A stretch of DNA of 64,000 nucleotides from Caldithrix abyssi DSM 13497. GTDB lineage: Bacteria; Calditrichota; Calditrichia; Calditrichales; Calditrichaceae. Positions 44,402 to 59,033 of this stretch are shown piece after piece. The stretch is from the NCBI RefSeq assembly GCF_001886815.1, contig NZ_CP018099.1, positions 806,001 through 870,000 on the forward strand, written 5' to 3'. The notes under the pieces are model-generated. The model was not told the origin of the DNA and did not search any database. It was given only the letters and a program-made list of their open reading frames with translations. Position 1 is the first letter of the stretch. Each line of letters opens with the position of its first letter. A program made the position numbers and the translations under genes.

Positions 44402-44533
44402 TGTACTTTCATGTTTAATAAATTCTGAGCAAATTTTATGAAAAACAAAAGATTCAGGTCACTTTCGCTAAACTTCCAGCTTAATTTGCCGAAAATTTTA
44501 AAAAATGTAAAACAATAAAAAAGATGAGGTTTC

Positions 44534-47500
44534 ATGATGAGCATCAGATACCATGTTTTTTTAATCATCTTCGCACTCACGATTTTCTCAACCTCCCTGC
44601 AGGCAACCATTTACTATTCCGTTGCGTCAGGCAATTTTGGCACATTGAGTAACTGGAATACGGATCCTGCCGGGAACGGCACTCAACCTGGTTCAATTAA
44701 CAGCGCGGATGATTTTGTGATTCAAAACGGCTATACCATAACCAACGACGGCACCTACACCATTAATAGCTTAACCATTGAGAGCGGGGGAACTTACGAC
44801 GGCAACGCTAATACTATCACACTGAATGGCGATTTTACACAAGATGGAACGTTTACCGATGGAGTTAACGGCGCGGCCAGCATGACTTTTGCCGGTTCCG
44901 CCACGCAAAGCATTAGCGGCAGTGGTTCGCTGGAGTTTAATGTTTTAACATTTAGCGGTACCGGCACCTACAATCTTAATACCAGCTTTGCCGCCTCGTT
45001 CCTGAATCTTTCCGGCGGCACGTTAAACGCGGGCAGCGCTACCATAACGTTAGTCGGAGTTGGAACAGGCAACACATTTGACAAAACCGGGGGCAGTTTT
45101 AATGCCGGTACGTCGCTATTCATTTTCTCAACCACAGCAACCGGGTCGCAAGTCATCTCCAGCAATGACAATATCAGCTTTTACAATTTGGAACACTCCC
45201 CGGGTCTTAATCGCAGCTTGACCTTTGCCGGAAATGTTCAGATCAGCATAACCAATCAGTTTACACGGGGCGGTAGTAGTTCCAGCGTTATTCTGGACGG
45301 AACCACGACGGTCAACCTTAACGGGGCAACCCTCATTTACACTGGCAGCGCCAGCAAAACCATTGCCGCCGAGTGGCCTATCGATGCTTTACTTGCCCCT
45401 AATGAAGTTCAGATTAATTCTGGCATCACGGTTACAGCCGATCCGGGAGTGGGCAACACATTACAGACAAACTATTTATCCCTTACCACATCGGGTTCCA
45501 GTTTAAGCATTGCTTCGGGCACGGTGCAGGTCAATACCAAAGTTACCTTAACCGACGGCACCATTGTTGAAAGCGGCGGCGCCTTTGCCTGGGGTACGGG
45601 CACGACCACCTTGCTTTACAACGGAGCCAGCCAGCAAACGGTGGGCGCTGAATGGACTACCAGCAAAGCGCCGACTCATGTTCAAATCAATAACTCCTCC
45701 GCAACTTCTCCGGCGCTCAGTCTTGGCGCTTCCAACTTGAGCAGTTTGGCTGGAGATTTAACATTGACTCAGGGCTCCGTGGATTATTCCGCTTCGTCGC
45801 TCTCTTTGAGCGTGGCCGGGAATGTGGTGGGCGGCTCCGGTTCTTTTGGGATTGTAAACGCCAATACGCTGATCGTAACCGGCGCAACCAGTCAGGTTAC
45901 CTCTTCTGGTCAGGCCACTCTTCATAACCTGACTATTACCTCCTCAGGCGCCACGTTGTCCGATATTGTCATCGCAGGCACATTAACCGTTAATCCGGGC
46001 AGCGGCAACACCACCACGCTTGCCGGCGCTATTACCCTGCAAAGCGGCGCTGCCATTAATGTTGCCAGCGGCACCCTGAATTTAAACGGTTTTGGCATCA
46101 CAAAGGTCGGGTCTAACACACTGACTCTGGCGGCCAGCAGCCAGTTGACCACTGGCGGCACATCCATCAGTGGCTTTTCAACTTATTCTTTAGATCCTAC
46201 CAGCACCATTTTGTTTAACGGCGCCATCAGCGAAGACATCCCTGCCGGCGTAAGCTATGGCAATATTCAAATCAATAAATCCGGCGCGACCGCAACCGTA
46301 AACGGAACGGGTAGCGTTGTTTTACAGGATGGCGGCGATCTTACCGTATTGGCCGGCACCTTCAATTTAAACGCTTTTACACTGCAGTTAGGTAATAATA
46401 GCGATTTAATTGTTCAGGGGGGAATCGCTGACCTGGCCGGCGGCACGCTGAGTATTACGGCAACCAATATCAACGCCTTTACCGTGGCCAGTGGCGCAAC
46501 GCTCAGAACGGGCGGAACCAGCATTGATGGCTTTGATAGCTACACGGCCGACGGAACTCTGGTCTTTAATGGCTCAGCCGCTGAAACCATTCCGGCCGGC
46601 CTGACCAGCGTAAATAATTTAACCATTGACAACAGCTCCGGCGTCAGCGCATCTGCCGATATGCAGGTAAGCGGCGCTTTAACCTTAACTTCAGGAACCT
46701 TTACGCCGCAAGTCCTGACTTTAACCGGCAGCCTGACGGTGAACGGCGGTACCTTTAGCACTGCCAGCGGAAGCGTGGTCTTCCAGGGCTCCAGTCAGCA
46801 AACCATCGCCGGCACGGCGGCCGTTGATTTTTACAACTTAACCATTAACAATTCCAACGGCGTTGTGCTTAGCAATAACGCCACAGTTTACGGCGTAATG
46901 ACTTTTTCCAGCGGCGTATTCAATACCAATGGCAATCTGCTCTCACTGACTACTTCCGGAAGTTTTTCGGGAGCCAGTTCATCGAGCTATATCGAAGGAA
47001 AGGCGGCAAAGTCGTTTGCCGTTGGAACCTCGGCTAATTTCACTTTTCCAACCGCTAAAGACGGTCAGTACTTACCTGTAACCGTTACCTTTACAGATGT
47101 AGCCACCAGCACGTACACCGTAACCGTGGAACAATTTAATGCGGATCCTCACACTGCCGTTAGCAGCGCTATTGATGCCGCCACGCTCAGCGCCATTTCC
47201 TCCGTCCGCTACTGGAGCATTGACGGCGCAGGTGGAACGCCTTCCAATTTGCAAATCACCCTTAGCTGGAATTCCTCTGACGGTATTTCAAACTTAACAG
47301 CGCTGGATGTGGCCCAGTACAACGGCACGCAGTGGATAAGCGCCGGAGGCGATGGGTCTGGCACCGCAAGCAGCGGGACGATTCAATCGGATGTTATTAC
47401 CAGCAGCGGAAGTTTTTTTACCTTTGGCGATGATGCCGCCGGAGGTCAGGATAACTCGCTGCCCGTCACGCTTTCTACCTTTAATGTAACGGCTTCGTTT

Positions 47501-48055
47501 GAACAGGTAAGCATCGAATGGGCTACCGAGTCGGAAGTTAATAATAGCGGTTTTAATCTCTACCGCCGAACGGCAGAAAACGATAACTGGACTAAGATAA
47601 ATGATCAATTAATCCCCGGCGCCGGCAATTCAAGCGTTCGGCATCAATACTCCTTTGTTGACGATCAGGTTGTTCCGGGCGAAACCTATTCTTACAGGCT
47701 GGAAAGCGTTGCTTTTAATGGGCAGGTAGAAGTTTTCAACAACCTGGTAAAAACCGTTACGGTTCCGTTACCGACCGATTTTATGGTCTATCAAAATTAT
47801 CCGAATCCGTTTAACCCCAAAACGACCATCAAATTCCAGCTGCCGGAACAACAGCGTATTTCGGTGCTCATTTACGATATTAACGGTAATCTGATCAAAC
47901 GACTGATCGATAACGAGGTCTTCAATCCGGGCGAGCATCAGGTGGAATGGGATGCCCTTGACGACAATCATCAACCTGTTTCCAGCGGCACCTATTTTTA
48001 CCGCTTTGTCTCTTCCGGCTATTCAAAGATGTTAAAAATGATCTACTTAAAATAA
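44534..48055 (+). CDS. large secreted beta-helix surface protein with FlgD-like/T9SS-type C-terminal tail
   Basis: 1173 residues. Signal peptide about 1-24 (ending SLQA). The body (about 30-900) consists of many repeated short strands rich in Gly, Ser, Thr and Asn (LTLTSGTFTPQVLTLTGSL, NLTINNSNGVVLSNNATV), the pattern of a right-handed beta-helix. A region with LPVTLSTFNVTASFEQVSIEW follows near 980. The C-terminal about 90 residues (VYQNYPNPFNPKTTIKFQLP, then LPEQQRISVLIYDINGNLIKRL and YFYRFVSSGYSKMLKMIYLK) form a FlgD-like Ig domain used as a type IX-style sorting signal. It probably sits on the cell surface or is released; the ligand is unknown. Confidence 0.88.
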   Translation: MMSIRYHVFLIIFALTIFSTSLQATIYYSVASGNFGTLSNWNTDPAGNGTQPGSINSADDFVIQNGYTITNDGTYTINSLTIESGGTYDGNANTITLNGDFTQDGTFTDGVNGAASMTFAGSATQSISGSGSLEFNVLTFSGTGTYNLNTSFAASFLNLSGGTLNAGSATITLVGVGTGNTFDKTGGSFNAGTSLFIFSTTATGSQVISSNDNISFYNLEHSPGLNRSLTFAGNVQISITNQFTRGGSSSSVILDGTTTVNLNGATLIYTGSASKTIAAEWPIDALLAPNEVQINSGITVTADPGVGNTLQTNYLSLTTSGSSLSIASGTVQVNTKVTLTDGTIVESGGAFAWGTGTTTLLYNGASQQTVGAEWTTSKAPTHVQINNSSATSPALSLGASNLSSLAGDLTLTQGSVDYSASSLSLSVAGNVVGGSGSFGIVNANTLIVTGATSQVTSSGQATLHNLTITSSGATLSDIVIAGTLTVNPGSGNTTTLAGAITLQSGAAINVASGTLNLNGFGITKVGSNTLTLAASSQLTTGGTSISGFSTYSLDPTSTILFNGAISEDIPAGVSYGNIQINKSGATATVNGTGSVVLQDGGDLTVLAGTFNLNAFTLQLGNNSDLIVQGGIADLAGGTLSITATNINAFTVASGATLRTGGTSIDGFDSYTADGTLVFNGSAAETIPAGLTSVNNLTIDNSSGVSASADMQVSGALTLTSGTFTPQVLTLTGSLTVNGGTFSTASGSVVFQGSSQQTIAGTAAVDFYNLTINNSNGVVLSNNATVYGVMTFSSGVFNTNGNLLSLTTSGSFSGASSSSYIEGKAAKSFAVGTSANFTFPTAKDGQYLPVTVTFTDVATSTYTVTVEQFNADPHTAVSSAIDAATLSAISSVRYWSIDGAGGTPSNLQITLSWNSSDGISNLTALDVAQYNGTQWISAGGDGSGTASSGTIQSDVITSSGSFFTFGDDAAGGQDNSLPVTLSTFNVTASFEQVSIEWATESEVNNSGFNLYRRTAENDNWTKINDQLIPGAGNSSVRHQYSFVDDQVVPGETYSYRLESVAFNGQVEVFNNLVKTVTVPLPTDFMVYQNYPNPFNPKTTIKFQLPEQQRISVLIYDINGNLIKRLIDNEVFNPGEHQVEWDALDDNHQPVSSGTYFYRFVSSGYSKMLKMIYLK

Positions 48056-53963: not shown

Positions 53964-54286
53964 ACAAGTAACCTGTGTTTGGTTTGTTCAAGGGAATCCT
54001 TTGCACCCACGCAAACGGTGGGCGGCATTTCCTTTACTGGCCTCTTTTTCGCCGGGGTGGGCTTTTGAATGAAATGGACGTTTGTTAAATGGGATTCCTC
54101 ACCCGACAAATCGGGATTCGGACCGACAGACTGATGACCAATTAACTCTTTAACTCTTACACTCCAGCGGCGTAAAACTTCCTCTGTTCAAGCATTCATT
54201 TTATTGATGAATATTGTTTTTTACCTAAAATAATGGGGTTTATTGCCGATACTAATTCTCACGAGTCTATAAACGGTAAAAAAATA
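53964..54286. other. intergenic region after plsX
   Basis: 323 bases. No gene was found, although an in-frame extension of the next gene runs to 54233. It holds a short hairpin-like stretch (CACCCACGCAAACGGTGGG near 54004) and sequences resembling repeat ends (CTCCAGCGGCGTAAAACTTC near 54163). It must include the promoter of the regulator gene. Confidence 0.5.
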
Positions 54287-55636
54287 ATGCAAATTAAAAT
54301 AGCCTTTATTTCAGACAGGTTGGTGGAATTCCAGCCTTTTTTAAAAAAGACCTTGCACGGCGAGTACCGGCTGGATTTATACGAACATATCGAAGCCATT
54401 CGCAAATCCATACAAATGATCTACTACGATCTGTTTATTATCGATTTAAAAGAAGAATGGCTAACCGTTCCGGGCTGGTTACTGGAGCAGGCCAATCACC
54501 AGTACTTTTATCAGGTCGTCTTTATTACGGACCATCCTCTGCCTGCAACGTTAAAGAAAAAAATGGGCGATAAAATCTATCAGGTGCTTGATTTTTCTAA
54601 CGCCAGAATCTCTCTCTCCGAAGTATTTAAGGACGCCTTAACCGCCATGGAAAAGCGCCAGTATCGGGACTTTAAGCTGCCCTCTACCGTGCGCTGGAGG
54701 CCGGATCGCCTAATCGGAAACGACGAAAACATTAAACGTGTTAACGAATTTGTCGAGATAATCAGCAGAACTTCGTTTACGCCCTGCCTGATCCGGGGCG
54801 AATCCGGAACGGGTAAAGACCTGGTGTCGTACATTATTCATTCTGAAAACGAAAAACAACAAAATCCTTTTATCGTCAAAGATTGCGAATTTGCCACGAC
54901 CAATGAACTGCTTTCCGATATTTTTGGCGTGATTTCGGATAACGGTCGTTTGAATCCGGCCAAAAAGGGATTAATAGAGCAGGCAGCAGGAGGAACGCTT
55001 GTTCTGAAAAATATCGAACGGCTGCCGGCCGAGGTTCAAAACAAATTACTGCTTTATCTGGACAGCCACATCATTAAACCCATCGGCGGAGAAAAGCCCA
55101 TTCGTGTGGATACAAGAATTATTGCCCAGACGCGCTTTGATCTGGAAACCTTTGTTCAAAACGGCAGTTTTAATCCGGAGCTCTATTTTCACTTAAAGAG
55201 TTTTGAGATCTATCTGCCGCCTTTGCGCGAAAGAAGGCGAGATATTTCTTTGTTGGTGCGCTACTTTTTGCAACACTTCAGCTTTCTTTACGCCAAACCC
55301 ATGCCCAAAATTTCGCCAATGGCTCTTAATCTTTTAAAAGATTACTACTGGCCGGGCAACGTACAGGAGCTGAGAGAAGTCATTGAATTCAGCGTGCTGA
55401 GCAATCCCACCAATGAGATTCATTTAAAAAACCTGCCCGAGTATTTGAGCAATTCAAAAAACATTCCGGATGATGTGGACTTATTGGGGAATTGTTCTTT
55501 AAAAGAAATCGAACGTGTTCACATTGAGCGTGTGCTGGCCAGGACCAAAGGCAACAAATCGAAAGCCGCCGATTTTCTGCAGATTTCCAGAACCACTCTC
55601 AGAGAAAAATTAAAAACCTACGGGCTGGATAAATAG
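54287..55636 (+). CDS. degenerate NtrC-like AAA+ transcriptional regulator (no GAFTGA motif)
   Basis: 449 residues. A receiver-like N-terminal region (about 1-130), an AAA+ domain (about 140-385) and a Fis-type HTH at the C-terminus (NKSKAADFLQISRTTLREKLKTYG). Walker A GESGTGKD is intact (about 170-178). The GAFTGA sigma54-contacting loop is absent: the region reads LLSDIFGVISDNGRLNPAKKGLIEQA. Walker B is altered, with LVLKNIERLP in place of the usual LFLDEIGEL, losing the acidic pair. An arginine-finger-like PPLRERRRDISLL is present. It therefore probably binds DNA as a non-sigma54 regulator. ATG at 54287 has a weak site; an ATG at 54233 is the alternative. Confidence 0.82.
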   Translation: MQIKIAFISDRLVEFQPFLKKTLHGEYRLDLYEHIEAIRKSIQMIYYDLFIIDLKEEWLTVPGWLLEQANHQYFYQVVFITDHPLPATLKKKMGDKIYQVLDFSNARISLSEVFKDALTAMEKRQYRDFKLPSTVRWRPDRLIGNDENIKRVNEFVEIISRTSFTPCLIRGESGTGKDLVSYIIHSENEKQQNPFIVKDCEFATTNELLSDIFGVISDNGRLNPAKKGLIEQAAGGTLVLKNIERLPAEVQNKLLLYLDSHIIKPIGGEKPIRVDTRIIAQTRFDLETFVQNGSFNPELYFHLKSFEIYLPPLRERRRDISLLVRYFLQHFSFLYAKPMPKISPMALNLLKDYYWPGNVQELREVIEFSVLSNPTNEIHLKNLPEYLSNSKNIPDDVDLLGNCSLKEIERVHIERVLARTKGNKSKAADFLQISRTTLREKLKTYGLDK

Positions 55637-55725: not shown

Positions 55726-56982
55726 ATGGAAAAGAATTTTTATTTTAGCGAAAACATTCTCCATGCCGAAAACCTGAACTTACAGGAATTTGCCGCGAAT
55801 CATCCCACGCCCTTTTATCTTTACTCGCAATCCAGAATCGAGCAAAATTGCCAGGCGGTAATCAACGCCGGCAAAGGGTTAGATTTTTTACCCTGCTTTG
55901 CTTTAAAGGCCAACTACAATCCGGCCCTTTTAAAGCTGATTAAAAACATGGGTTTTGGCGCCGATGTGGTTTCCGGAGGAGAACTGGTATTTGCCTTAAA
56001 GGCCGGTTTTGCGCCTTCCAAAATTGTTTTTGCCGGAGTGGGAAAAACGGCAGAAGAGATTCGCCTGGCCATTGAATCCCGCATTCATTCCATCAATATC
56101 GAATCCATCGAAGAATTCAAGGTCGTGCAAAAAATCGCCGAAGAGCTGGAAATTCCCACCGGCATCGCCTTTCGCATTAATCCGGATATCGAAGCGCCCA
56201 CGCACGATTACATTGCAACTGGCAAACATATTAACAAATTCGGGATTACTTTCGAAGACGCGCTGCCCCTGTACCGGGCCGCCGCTAAACATCCCTGGTT
56301 AAAGCCGGTCGGCTTACATATTCACATCGGTTCCCAGATTCTGGAAGCAGAACCGTTTTTAAAAGCGGCCGATTATCTGATTGAAAAAGTCGATTTTCTG
56401 CGAGATCAGGGTCTGCCGGTTACGGTTTTAGATCTGGGGGGCGGCATAGGAATCGACTATACGGAAGATTTTTTTGAAACAACGCGCTGGCCTTTGCCGC
56501 AAATTTTGTCTGCTTTTGTGGCCAGGTTTAAAGGGCTGGAGATTAAACTACTGGCCGAACTGGGACGGGCCATTGTGGGCGACGCCGGCCTTTTGATTAC
56601 TAAAGTGCTGTACAAAAAACAAACGCCCCTGAAAAAGTTTGTTATTGTTGATGCCGGCATGAACAACCTGCTGCGCCCCAGTTTGTACCGAGCGTACCAC
56701 CCGATCGTTCCCCTGCAAAGGCGTAATGCGCCCGCTGAAATAGTGGATGTTGTCGGTCCGGTGTGTGAAAGCGGGGATTTTTTTGCTCAGGACAGAAAGT
56801 TGCAGGCCGTAGAGCAGGGCGATTTCCTGGCCATTGGCGGGGCTGGCGCTTACGGCCAGGCTCTGGCTTCCAACTATAATTTGCGTCCGCTCATTCCGGA
56901 ATATCTGGTTAAAGACACCAAAGTAAAAACCATTTTTAAAGGTGAACGTATTGAGCAAATAGCACAAAAATTCGAGTGGTAA
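55726..56982 (+). CDS. lysA: diaminopimelate decarboxylase
   Basis: 418 residues, fold type III PLP enzyme. The PLP lysine is Lys61 in FALKANYN. HIGSQI, LDLGGGIGI and the C-terminal CESGDFFA and GAYGQALASNYNLRP motifs are typical of LysA. It converts meso-diaminopimelate to L-lysine in the last step of lysine synthesis. The gene is followed one base later by alr, so a cell-wall amino-acid operon is likely. The start is an ATG after GGGATTTTCTGA; no strong ribosome binding site. Confidence 0.94.
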   Translation: MEKNFYFSENILHAENLNLQEFAANHPTPFYLYSQSRIEQNCQAVINAGKGLDFLPCFALKANYNPALLKLIKNMGFGADVVSGGELVFALKAGFAPSKIVFAGVGKTAEEIRLAIESRIHSINIESIEEFKVVQKIAEELEIPTGIAFRINPDIEAPTHDYIATGKHINKFGITFEDALPLYRAAAKHPWLKPVGLHIHIGSQILEAEPFLKAADYLIEKVDFLRDQGLPVTVLDLGGGIGIDYTEDFFETTRWPLPQILSAFVARFKGLEIKLLAELGRAIVGDAGLLITKVLYKKQTPLKKFVIVDAGMNNLLRPSLYRAYHPIVPLQRRNAPAEIVDVVGPVCESGDFFAQDRKLQAVEQGDFLAIGGAGAYGQALASNYNLRPLIPEYLVKDTKVKTIFKGERIEQIAQKFEW

Positions 56983-56983
56983 A

Positions 56984-58099
56984 ATGGGACCAACCAGAGC
57001 TTATATCGATCATCGTAACTTGATTCACAATTTAACTTTGATTCAAAAGGCGGTGGCTCCGGCGACTGTGATGGGCGTGGTTAAAGCCGAGGCTTACGGC
57101 CATGGCAGCATTGAAGCGGCCAGAACCCTGCTGGCTAACGGCGTTAACTATTTAGGCGTTGCCTTTCCGGAAGAAGGCATCAAATTGCGCAAAGCCGGCA
57201 TTGACGTGCCCATTCTTGTTTTTGGCGCTCATCTGCCTCATTTCTTTCCGCAGTTTCTGGATTACAAGCTGGACATTACGTTAACAGACGTGGAACAACT
57301 GGAACCCTTACGCGCCCTGTGTCGCAAATACGGCCTGCGGCCGCGCGTGCAAATTAAAATAGATACCGGCATGGGCCGCGTGGGATTTCTTTTTGACCGG
57401 CAACAGGATTTGATTTTTAAAATTATTGAAGAGCCCGCCTGGCAAGTGGTGGGCGTTTATTCTCATCTTTCCAGCGCCGACGAAGAAGATACAACGTTTA
57501 CGCTCCAGCAGATCAAAGAATTCAGCAGGATTAAAAGCGTCATTCAACAAAAATACCCCGAATTGAATGCGCTGTTTCATCTGGCCAATTCGGCGGCCAT
57601 CATGCGCTTTAAAGAAAGTTATTTTGACATGGTTCGTCCGGGCGTGATGCTTTACGGCAATCCGCCTTCTCCTGCTTTTAACCTGCAGTGGCCCTTAAAA
57701 GAGGTGATGGCTTTTAAGTCTAAACTAACGCTGATAAAAAAATTGGACGCCCATCAACCGGTGAGTTACAATCGGCGCTACTACACGCCGCGGCCGACCT
57801 ATATTGGCCTGGTGCCGGCTGGTTATGCCGACGGCTACAACCGAAAATTCACCAATCGAGGACAGGTATTGATTCGCGGAAAGCGTTACCCGGTGGTGGG
57901 CACCGTTTGCATGGATCAGTTTTTAGTTGATCTGGGGCCGCGTTTAAATGGCGTTAAGGTGGGCGACGAGGTGGTGCTTTTTGGAAAACAGGAAAACGCG
58001 CACATTAAAATCATCGAAATTTCTGAAAAACTTGAGACCATCCCTTACGAGGTGACCTGTTGGGTTTCGGGACGCGTGCCGCGCATCCATCTGAAATAG
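56984..58099 (+). CDS. alr: alanine racemase
   Basis: 371 residues. PLP lysine Lys34 in MGVVKAEAYGHG, catalytic Tyr in PVSYNRRYYTPRPTYIGLVPAGYADGY, and VGTVCMDQFLVDL near the C-terminus. It supplies D-alanine for peptidoglycan. It starts one base after the lysA stop, implying coupled translation. Length and motifs are normal for the family. Confidence 0.94.
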   Translation: MGPTRAYIDHRNLIHNLTLIQKAVAPATVMGVVKAEAYGHGSIEAARTLLANGVNYLGVAFPEEGIKLRKAGIDVPILVFGAHLPHFFPQFLDYKLDITLTDVEQLEPLRALCRKYGLRPRVQIKIDTGMGRVGFLFDRQQDLIFKIIEEPAWQVVGVYSHLSSADEEDTTFTLQQIKEFSRIKSVIQQKYPELNALFHLANSAAIMRFKESYFDMVRPGVMLYGNPPSPAFNLQWPLKEVMAFKSKLTLIKKLDAHQPVSYNRRYYTPRPTYIGLVPAGYADGYNRKFTNRGQVLIRGKRYPVVGTVCMDQFLVDLGPRLNGVKVGDEVVLFGKQENAHIKIIEISEKLETIPYEVTCWVSGRVPRIHLK

Positions 58100-58196: not shown

Positions 58197-59033
58197 ATGA
58201 AACGGTTAACGTACGCCCTGAGTATAATCCTGGCTTTGGCATTGACGGTTCACAGTCAGGTGTTAAAAGTCAATGTCACGCTCGATCCCACCAATCTGCC
58301 CACCGACGAGGTGAACAAACTGGCGGATTTCCCCGATAAGGTTGAACAATATATTAACTCCTACGAATGGGTGGAAGACGTTTATGAATACGATGTGAAT
58401 TGCAACGTTCGCATCATCATTCAATCCGTTCAACAAAAATCGCACGAAAAATTGTACCTGGCGCAGTTTGTCATTACCAGTGAATCCGGAGAATATTTTT
58501 ACGACAAAACATGGGAGTTCCCTTACGACCAGGGGACGCCTTTTAGTCATTTTAAGGGGCAATTCGATCCCTTAACCCATTTCCTCGATTTTTACGCTTA
58601 CATGATATTAGCCGGCGAGCTGGATACCAACGATTATTTAAAGGGAAATCCTCTTTATGAAAAAGCGCGGGATATCGCCAATCGCGGGCAACTTTCGCGC
58701 TACCCGCGCGGCTGGACATATAGGATGAATCTGGTATTTGCCATAACCGATGCCCGTACCCGTCCTCTGCGCGAAATAAAACCCGATTTCTTTGAAGCGC
58801 TTTATTTGTTAGATGAAGGAAAACGGGGCGAGGCCTACGCTTACGCTAAAAAGGTATTAGAGGGCCTTAAAAAGGTTTATAAAGTTCAACCCAACAATCT
58901 CTATTTACAATACTTTTTCAATTCGCATTATCAGGAACTGGCGGATCTGTTCAGAGGCCATAATGCGGATTTGAATCAGTTAATAGAAATGGATAGCCGG
59001 CATCGGCAGGCCTATCGCGATGTAATGGAGTAA
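58197..59033 (+). CDS. DUF4835 family secreted protein
   Basis: 278 residues. Signal peptide about 1-20 (ending TVHS). The following sequence (VNVTLDPTNLPTDEVNKLADF, YINSYEWVEDVYEYDVNCNVRIIIQ, YDKTWEFPYDQGTPFSHFKG, FLDFYAYMILAGELDTND) matches the DUF4835 family known from Bacteroidota. It is probably periplasmic or outer-membrane associated, with function unknown. ATG with CTGGAG upstream. A good terminator follows (59110-59148). Confidence 0.85.
   Translation: MKRLTYALSIILALALTVHSQVLKVNVTLDPTNLPTDEVNKLADFPDKVEQYINSYEWVEDVYEYDVNCNVRIIIQSVQQKSHEKLYLAQFVITSESGEYFYDKTWEFPYDQGTPFSHFKGQFDPLTHFLDFYAYMILAGELDTNDYLKGNPLYEKARDIANRGQLSRYPRGWTYRMNLVFAITDARTRPLREIKPDFFEALYLLDEGKRGEAYAYAKKVLEGLKKVYKVQPNNLYLQYFFNSHYQELADLFRGHNADLNQLIEMDSRHRQAYRDVME

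Follow-up and report, generated by a model that had tools for sequence, protein, structure and literature searches.

Several regulators of the sigma54-activator family have been described that lack the GAFTGA loop. The accounts excerpted here report that Caulobacter NtrC carries an L1 deletion covering GAFTGA and acts as both activator and repressor at sigma70 promoters (PMC10274813, PMC12421884). Its Walker A and Walker B motifs are nevertheless needed for growth on ammonium (PMC10274813), and its mutants show unexpected effects on sigma54 genes, some of which are raised (PMC12421884). Rhodobacter capsulatus NtrC, also without GAFTGA, requires ATP binding, not hydrolysis, acts with sigma70 polymerase and has a receiver that must be phosphorylated (PMC10274813). 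Vibrio cholerae VpsR, of receiver-AAA+ build and again without GAFTGA, needs no ATP and regulates sigma70 promoters (PMC10274813). Among the matches listed in the open-licence literature for GAFTGA-less regulators or Calditrich* bEBPs, none concerned the group studied here.

In this study, we examined a regulator encoded in a 64,000-nucleotide stretch of the Caldithrix abyssi DSM 13497 genome, the whole of which is called the window and supplies the coordinates below. Judged by its sequence, this regulator is a more degenerate variant of the known GAFTGA-less bEBPs, conserved over an order.

Domain layout and predicted structure

The gene and its domains are as follows.

54287-55636, + strand: pseudo-bEBP regulator, 449 aa, ATG at 54287, stop at 55636 (ORF, Pfam and orthologue alignment)
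54287-54658, + strand: pseudo-receiver domain, residues 1-124, with Asp53 kept, acid pair reduced and beta5 Lys lost (model, alignment)
54458-54505, + strand: conserved patch W58..P62.W64..E67 Q68..Y73 of the pseudo-receiver (orthologue alignment)
54710-55210, + strand: degenerate AAA+ core, Sigma54_activat (Pfam)
55226-55462, + strand: AAA+ lid, with Gln360 in place of the sensor II Arg (Pfam, alignment)
55499-55621, + strand: Fis-type HTH (HTH_8), the domain with the highest conservation (Pfam, identity per domain)

A second in-frame ATG lies upstream, at 54233, and falls within the spacer of the predicted promoter described below; the start at 54287 was therefore preferred. The sequence-only reading had proposed an NtrC-like protein, and the receiver, AAA+ and Fis-type HTH build is borne out by Pfam together with the predicted structure. 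Pfam matched Sigma54_activat (PF00158, 127.6 bits against a cut-off of 20.2), the AAA lid and the Fis HTH (PF02954, E 2.4e-15), the last having rightly been read as retained; PF00158 and HTH_8 were each found in all 17 orthologues scanned. When the complete genome (4,978,541 bp, one contig) was searched with Sigma54_activat, the regulator reached 129.4 bits, as against 225.6 to 259.4 bits for 30 canonical proteins; four weak matches (E 1.3e-7 to 1.1e-4) stand outside the 30 that were read. The canonical bEBPs of this genome (best match G000:2070925-2072175, 35% identity) belong to the same AAA+ family and have a similar domain order.

An AlphaFold2 model built from 17 of the 19 orthologues described below, leaving out a near-identical one and one cut by a contig end, had a pLDDT of 84.8 and comprised receiver, AAA+ and HTH. 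In VIA-align, NtrC1, NtrC4, NtrX and FleQ came out on top (Z 27.4 to 25.0), with rmsd near 16 for two-domain alignments and about 2 to 3 for AAA+ alone; the Foldseek structural search agreed. VpsR (7v2b) aligned over 351 residues with Z 24.1 and rmsd 16.4.

Modelled alone, the N-terminal domain (pLDDT 88.5) adopted a (beta-alpha)5 receiver fold, its best PDB match being 3cfy (Z 12.3, rmsd 3.0, 116 aligned), and Pfam receiver models gave no match at E<=0.1 in the 17 orthologues scanned. The phospho-acceptor Asp53 is present in 18 of 19 orthologues and replaced by Glu in one. The first acid of the acid pair is Ser in all 19 (Ser-Asp in 17, Ser-Asn in 2), and none has the receiver Lys at the aligned column, although seven carry a Lys within two columns of it. 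P62, W64, E67, Q68 and Y73 are invariant and W58 nearly so, which suggests that the patch from W58 to Y73 may be another input surface, perhaps for a partner or ligand.

Losses in the AAA+ domain

Residues were compared by aligning the orthologues with eight canonical paralogues of the same genome, in which the ATPase residues are all kept. The relevant positions are the following.

54797-54820, + strand: Walker A GESGTGKD, Lys177 kept in 19/19 orthologues
54923-54955, + strand: L1 region without GAFTGA (alignment)
54992-55018, + strand: Walker B position GTLVLKNIE, Asp-Glu replaced by Lys-Asn (alignment)
55115-55135, + strand: sensor I, Asn replaced by Arg283 (alignment)
55169-55195, + strand: Arg-finger region, with Asn296 and His302 in place of the two Arg (alignment)

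Walker A, noted earlier as kept, was located where listed, and Gly171 and Gly176 are as constant as Lys177 (19/19 orthologues). The loss of the sigma54-contacting loop, also part of the sequence-only reading, was confirmed: the L1 loop reads FGVISDNGRLN where the canonical counterpart reads FGHEKGAFTGAI, and the alignment contains no GAFTGA in any of the 19 orthologues. At the Walker B position, described earlier as altered, canonical relatives have GTLFLDEIG; the Asp is lost from every orthologue and the Glu from 18 of 19. Neither an intact GAFTGA nor an acidic pair was seen elsewhere in the domain, in comparison with 18 orthologues and the eight canonical paralogues.

The losses extend further than that reading had listed, to sensor I Asn (lost in 18/19 orthologues, kept in one), both Arg fingers (the first lost in 19/19, the second in 14/19 and kept in 5) and sensor II Arg (lost in 15 of the 18 orthologues with sequence at that site, kept in 3). 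All 19 orthologues carry Glu244 (55016-55018), two residues past the missing Walker B pair, at a position where the eight canonical paralogues have Gly. In contrast to the regulator, the AAA+ cores of all 30 canonical proteins read contain GAFTGA itself or a form departing from it at one or two letters (GSYTGA, GSFTGA, GAFTDA, GTFTGA, GAFSGA). The Walker B search pattern was unmatched in nine of these 30, besides L199, and L205 reads LNEI there. The genome does contain rpoN, a point that had been raised as a check; lack of sigma54 is thus not the cause of the losses.

A second degenerate NtrC-like protein, a further match to PF00158, was noticed in the same genome at about 1,801,788-1,803,008 (L103:5789-7009, - strand). 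It has 406 aa, a Walker A reading GEKGTGK, no GAFTGA and LREI at Walker B, and by eye seems to end before any HTH; its gene overlaps a kinase-like gene by a few bases, and the flagellar sigma gene is about 17 kb away.

Conservation across the order

Our sample comprised 40 genomes of the phylum, 21 of them in the order (Calditrichales-like, the order name being our assignment) and 19 in other families. An orthologue (E<=1e-90, 541.9 to 758.1 bits) occurs in 19 of the 21 order genomes, exactly one in each, and is missing from G013 (73% complete) and G015 (96% complete). None of the 19 genomes of other families has one; only three of them match at E<=1e-90, with about 308 bits, and these three proteins keep a GAFTDA loop and LDEI. 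The lowest orthologue score, 541.9 bits, belongs to the contig-cut copy (G014), as against about 308 for the next-best proteins.

The orthologues are 40-79% identical, and since the same kinds of loss recur over this range, the losses are neither chance nor a sequencing fault. Mean pairwise identity in 17 of the 19 was 0.69 for the HTH, 0.56 for the AAA core and 0.43 for the receiver. In four within-genus pairs pN/pS was about 0.17 to 0.25, with synonymous sites saturated, and pN was lowest in the HTH in all four. Purifying selection keeps the Fis HTH and the Walker A Lys, and the orthologues have the look not of debris but of a protein that was maintained while hydrolysis and the contact with sigma54 were given up. 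In three orthologous loci of one genus, about 200 bp upstream of the gene are strongly conserved by eye, perhaps as a leader or small RNA.

A candidate FliA/WhiG-type promoter

The FliA/WhiG consensus is given as TAAA / GCCGATAA (PMC8325347), and CTAAAAT...TGCCGATACT is seen upstream of many orthologues. In the window, the predicted site is placed as follows.

54226-54251, + strand: predicted FliA/WhiG-type promoter TAAA-N15-GCCGATA, matching 11/11 consensus letters, its end 35 bp upstream of the ATG

For each gene, the 220 bp upstream were searched with the spacer set at 15, the score being the number of consensus letters matched, and compared with 300 shuffles. At least 10/11 was reached before nine of the 19 orthologues, all of family f1, with the site beginning 58 to 87 bp upstream of the ATG and a shuffle frequency of <=0.003 each. 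At least 9/11 was reached by 16 of the 19, some at other positions and with shuffle frequencies up to 0.067, and the remaining three have 8/11 at best, a score often met by shuffles. Among 170 other upstream regions of the same loci, taken from ORFs of at least 200 aa that are not all real genes, 6 reached at least 10 and 13 at least 9; the resulting Fisher value of 5e-7 is overstated, since related sequences are not independent. Genome-wide, the exact pattern is not enriched (7 matches, 8 for the backwards control), so that the pattern by itself proves nothing and the argument depends on how it recurs upstream of orthologous genes. A FliA/WhiG-type sigma factor probably drives transcription of the regulator gene.

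Flagellar genes are reported for C. abyssi in the excerpted text of PMC5317091. Two FliA/WhiG-type sigma genes exceed the cut-off in its genome. The first belongs to a flagellar cluster; the second (L101:7523-8281) lies outside it and has a receiver-kinase-like gene after it, gene recognition being partly by eye. Matches above the cut-off, flagellar and non-flagellar types pooled, occur in 36 of the 40 genomes, the present one included. When 23 upstream regions of the 34 flagellin-family matches were examined with spacers of 14 to 16, one reached at least 10/11, in a genome outside the order. Several flagellin genes (in L104, L105 and L168-L185) share by eye an upstream block like TTTAAAAA...CCCACGACCTATGNAGTA, which may perhaps be an unusual flagellar promoter. 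That flagellin upstream regions mostly lack the site, many sharing, by eye, another block, points away from the flagellar sigma factor for the regulator gene. G005 and G007 (87% and 76% complete) have no FliA/WhiG match above the cut-off and only weak sites (9/11 oddly placed, and 8/11). Two genomes count on the other side: G002 has a 10/11 site although its sole sigma match above the cut-off is apparently flagellar, and G010 has a strong sigma match (243 bits) and yet a site of just 8/11. A search for an operator in 14 upstream regions of family f1 brought none to the fore: the top inverted repeat was present in 3/14, equalled by 14/100 shuffles.

Neighbouring genes and a possible link to type IX secretion

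Three further features of the window bear on the surroundings of the regulator.

55726-58099, + strand: lysA and alr, downstream of the regulator (neighbour annotation)
58197-59033, + strand: porD-like gene (DUF4835 passes its Pfam cut-off; the NCBIfam PorD match has 94.9 bits, under its cut-off of 170)
44469-44494, + strand: second FliA/WhiG-type promoter-like site, 10/11, its end 39 bp upstream of a type IX cargo gene at 44534-48055

Downstream of the regulator, alr and porD are found in 12 of the 19 loci; three contigs end too early and four loci have other genes. Among 22 loci viewed, four f2 genomes and one f4 genome have lysA, alr and porD side by side with no regulator next to them; the f4 genome and one of the f2 genomes, G015, lack an orthologue altogether. 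An operon logic running through porD is weakened, as the cluster stands without the regulator too.

Type IX sorting-like tails gave 140 matches in the C. abyssi genome, a very large possible secretome; the excerpted text of PMC5317091 reports no Bacteroidetes-type gliding machinery for this organism. Among the 170 control upstream regions, at least 9/11 was reached by 9 of the 17 ORFs that carry a type IX tail and by 4 of the 153 others, a post hoc contrast noticed in the same table, several of the 17 being homologous neighbours. One cargo family, traced over 20 genomes, was present in nine; five of these reach at least 9/11, and in four the site lies at -62 to -70 bp. Of these four cargo genes, those of G006 and G010 adjoin the regulator and had already been seen, and those of G000 (at 508776) and G005 are copies elsewhere in the genome; the remaining non-adjacent copies score 8 (G001) and 7 (G002). 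The idea that type IX cargo at large forms a sigma28-type regulon was rejected: in a set of 60, the best-scoring 67 of the 140 minus seven whose frames were short or whose tails were partial, 8 upstream regions reached 9/11, compared with 4/60 on the reverse strand. A type IX secretion link of the regulator is a lead and not a result.

Discussion

The regulator belongs by sequence to the sigma54-activator family, but judged by the features tested it does not function as a sigma54 activator. We consider it probable that it is a sigma54-independent DNA-binding regulator of sigma54-activator descent, with a pseudo-receiver and an AAA+ domain that binds nucleotide but is hydrolysis-dead, working in the manner of VpsR or Rhodobacter NtrC. 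The AAA+ domain would bind nucleotide, or serve as an oligomerisation scaffold, without turnover; the pseudo-receiver would sense its signal without normal two-component phosphorylation, possibly through a partner at W58-Y73; and the HTH would then repress or activate promoters of sigma70-family polymerase. The earlier prediction that ATP-driven sigma54 activation has been lost fits the order-wide loss of the checked hydrolysis residues, and that of a repressor or sigma70-type regulator is consistent with the retained Walker A Lys and HTH and with published precedents (PMC10274813).

The precedents differ from the regulator in several respects. R. capsulatus NtrC depends on phosphorylation of its receiver (PMC10274813), while the receiver described here lacks one acid of the pair and the Lys. 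The Walker B Asp is present and needed in Caulobacter NtrC (PMC10274813), whereas it is gone from all 19 orthologues; this need in a GAFTGA-less protein was counted against our main reading, as were the effects of Caulobacter NtrC mutants on sigma54 genes (PMC12421884). VpsR differs in that the title of entry 7v2b reports c-di-GMP binding. The five orthologues that keep the second Arg finger and the three that keep sensor II Arg were also counted against the main reading, as was the operator search, in which no inverted repeat exceeded the shuffles, and the retained Walker A could have a structural role alone.

That mutants of the GAFTGA-less Caulobacter NtrC raise some sigma54 genes (PMC12421884) would agree with another role, in which the regulator is a partner or antagonist of a canonical sigma54 activator, entering mixed rings and dampening or tuning them. 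The model preserves both the AAA+ and the lid fold, aligning with active-state NtrC1 over 245 residues (Z 24.7, rmsd 2.0), and 30 canonical paralogues are on hand in the same genome. Arg fingers of AAA+ rings, however, act in trans, and because they are gone from the regulator it would poison such rings, not help them, which makes this role less likely; moreover, the HTH, as the most conserved domain, points to DNA targets of its own. We regard a mixed-ring partner as unlikely.

Control by c-di-GMP, with the dinucleotide at the AAA+ domain as in FleQ or VpsR, appears quite improbable. Both proteins are among the structural matches of the predicted model (FleQ Z 25.4, VpsR Z 24.1), and VpsR likewise has no GAFTGA loop, but the FleQ binding residues, which we take to be LFRS and Arg-Asn after Walker A, seem not to be kept in the regulator. 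The view of a decaying, functionless ex-activator, for which the many missing catalytic residues and the few residues lost from the end of the G004 frame might be cited, is scarcely credible and already contradicted by the present evidence: frames of 445-451 aa in 17/19 orthologues (G004 having 442 aa and G014 being contig-cut), pN/pS of about 0.2, and a single orthologue per genome across an order.

Returning to the sigma54-independent, non-hydrolysing regulator, a wider Calditrichales circuit may be envisaged, though we hold it to be doubtful: a non-flagellar FliA/WhiG-type sigma factor would transcribe the regulator, whose AAA+ domain would sense nucleotide without hydrolysing it, and together the two would set selected type IX-secreted surface proteins, perhaps with porD.

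The GAFTGA-less bEBPs described so far, to the extent of the excerpted accounts (PMC10274813, PMC12421884), are proteobacterial; here such a protein is fixed in an order of another phylum, with an ATPase site more degraded than that of Caulobacter NtrC. The regulator offers a natural test of what an AAA+ domain does in a transcription factor after the loss of hydrolysis, and it provides a testable promoter and regulon lead for a phylum in which gene regulation has seemingly received little attention.
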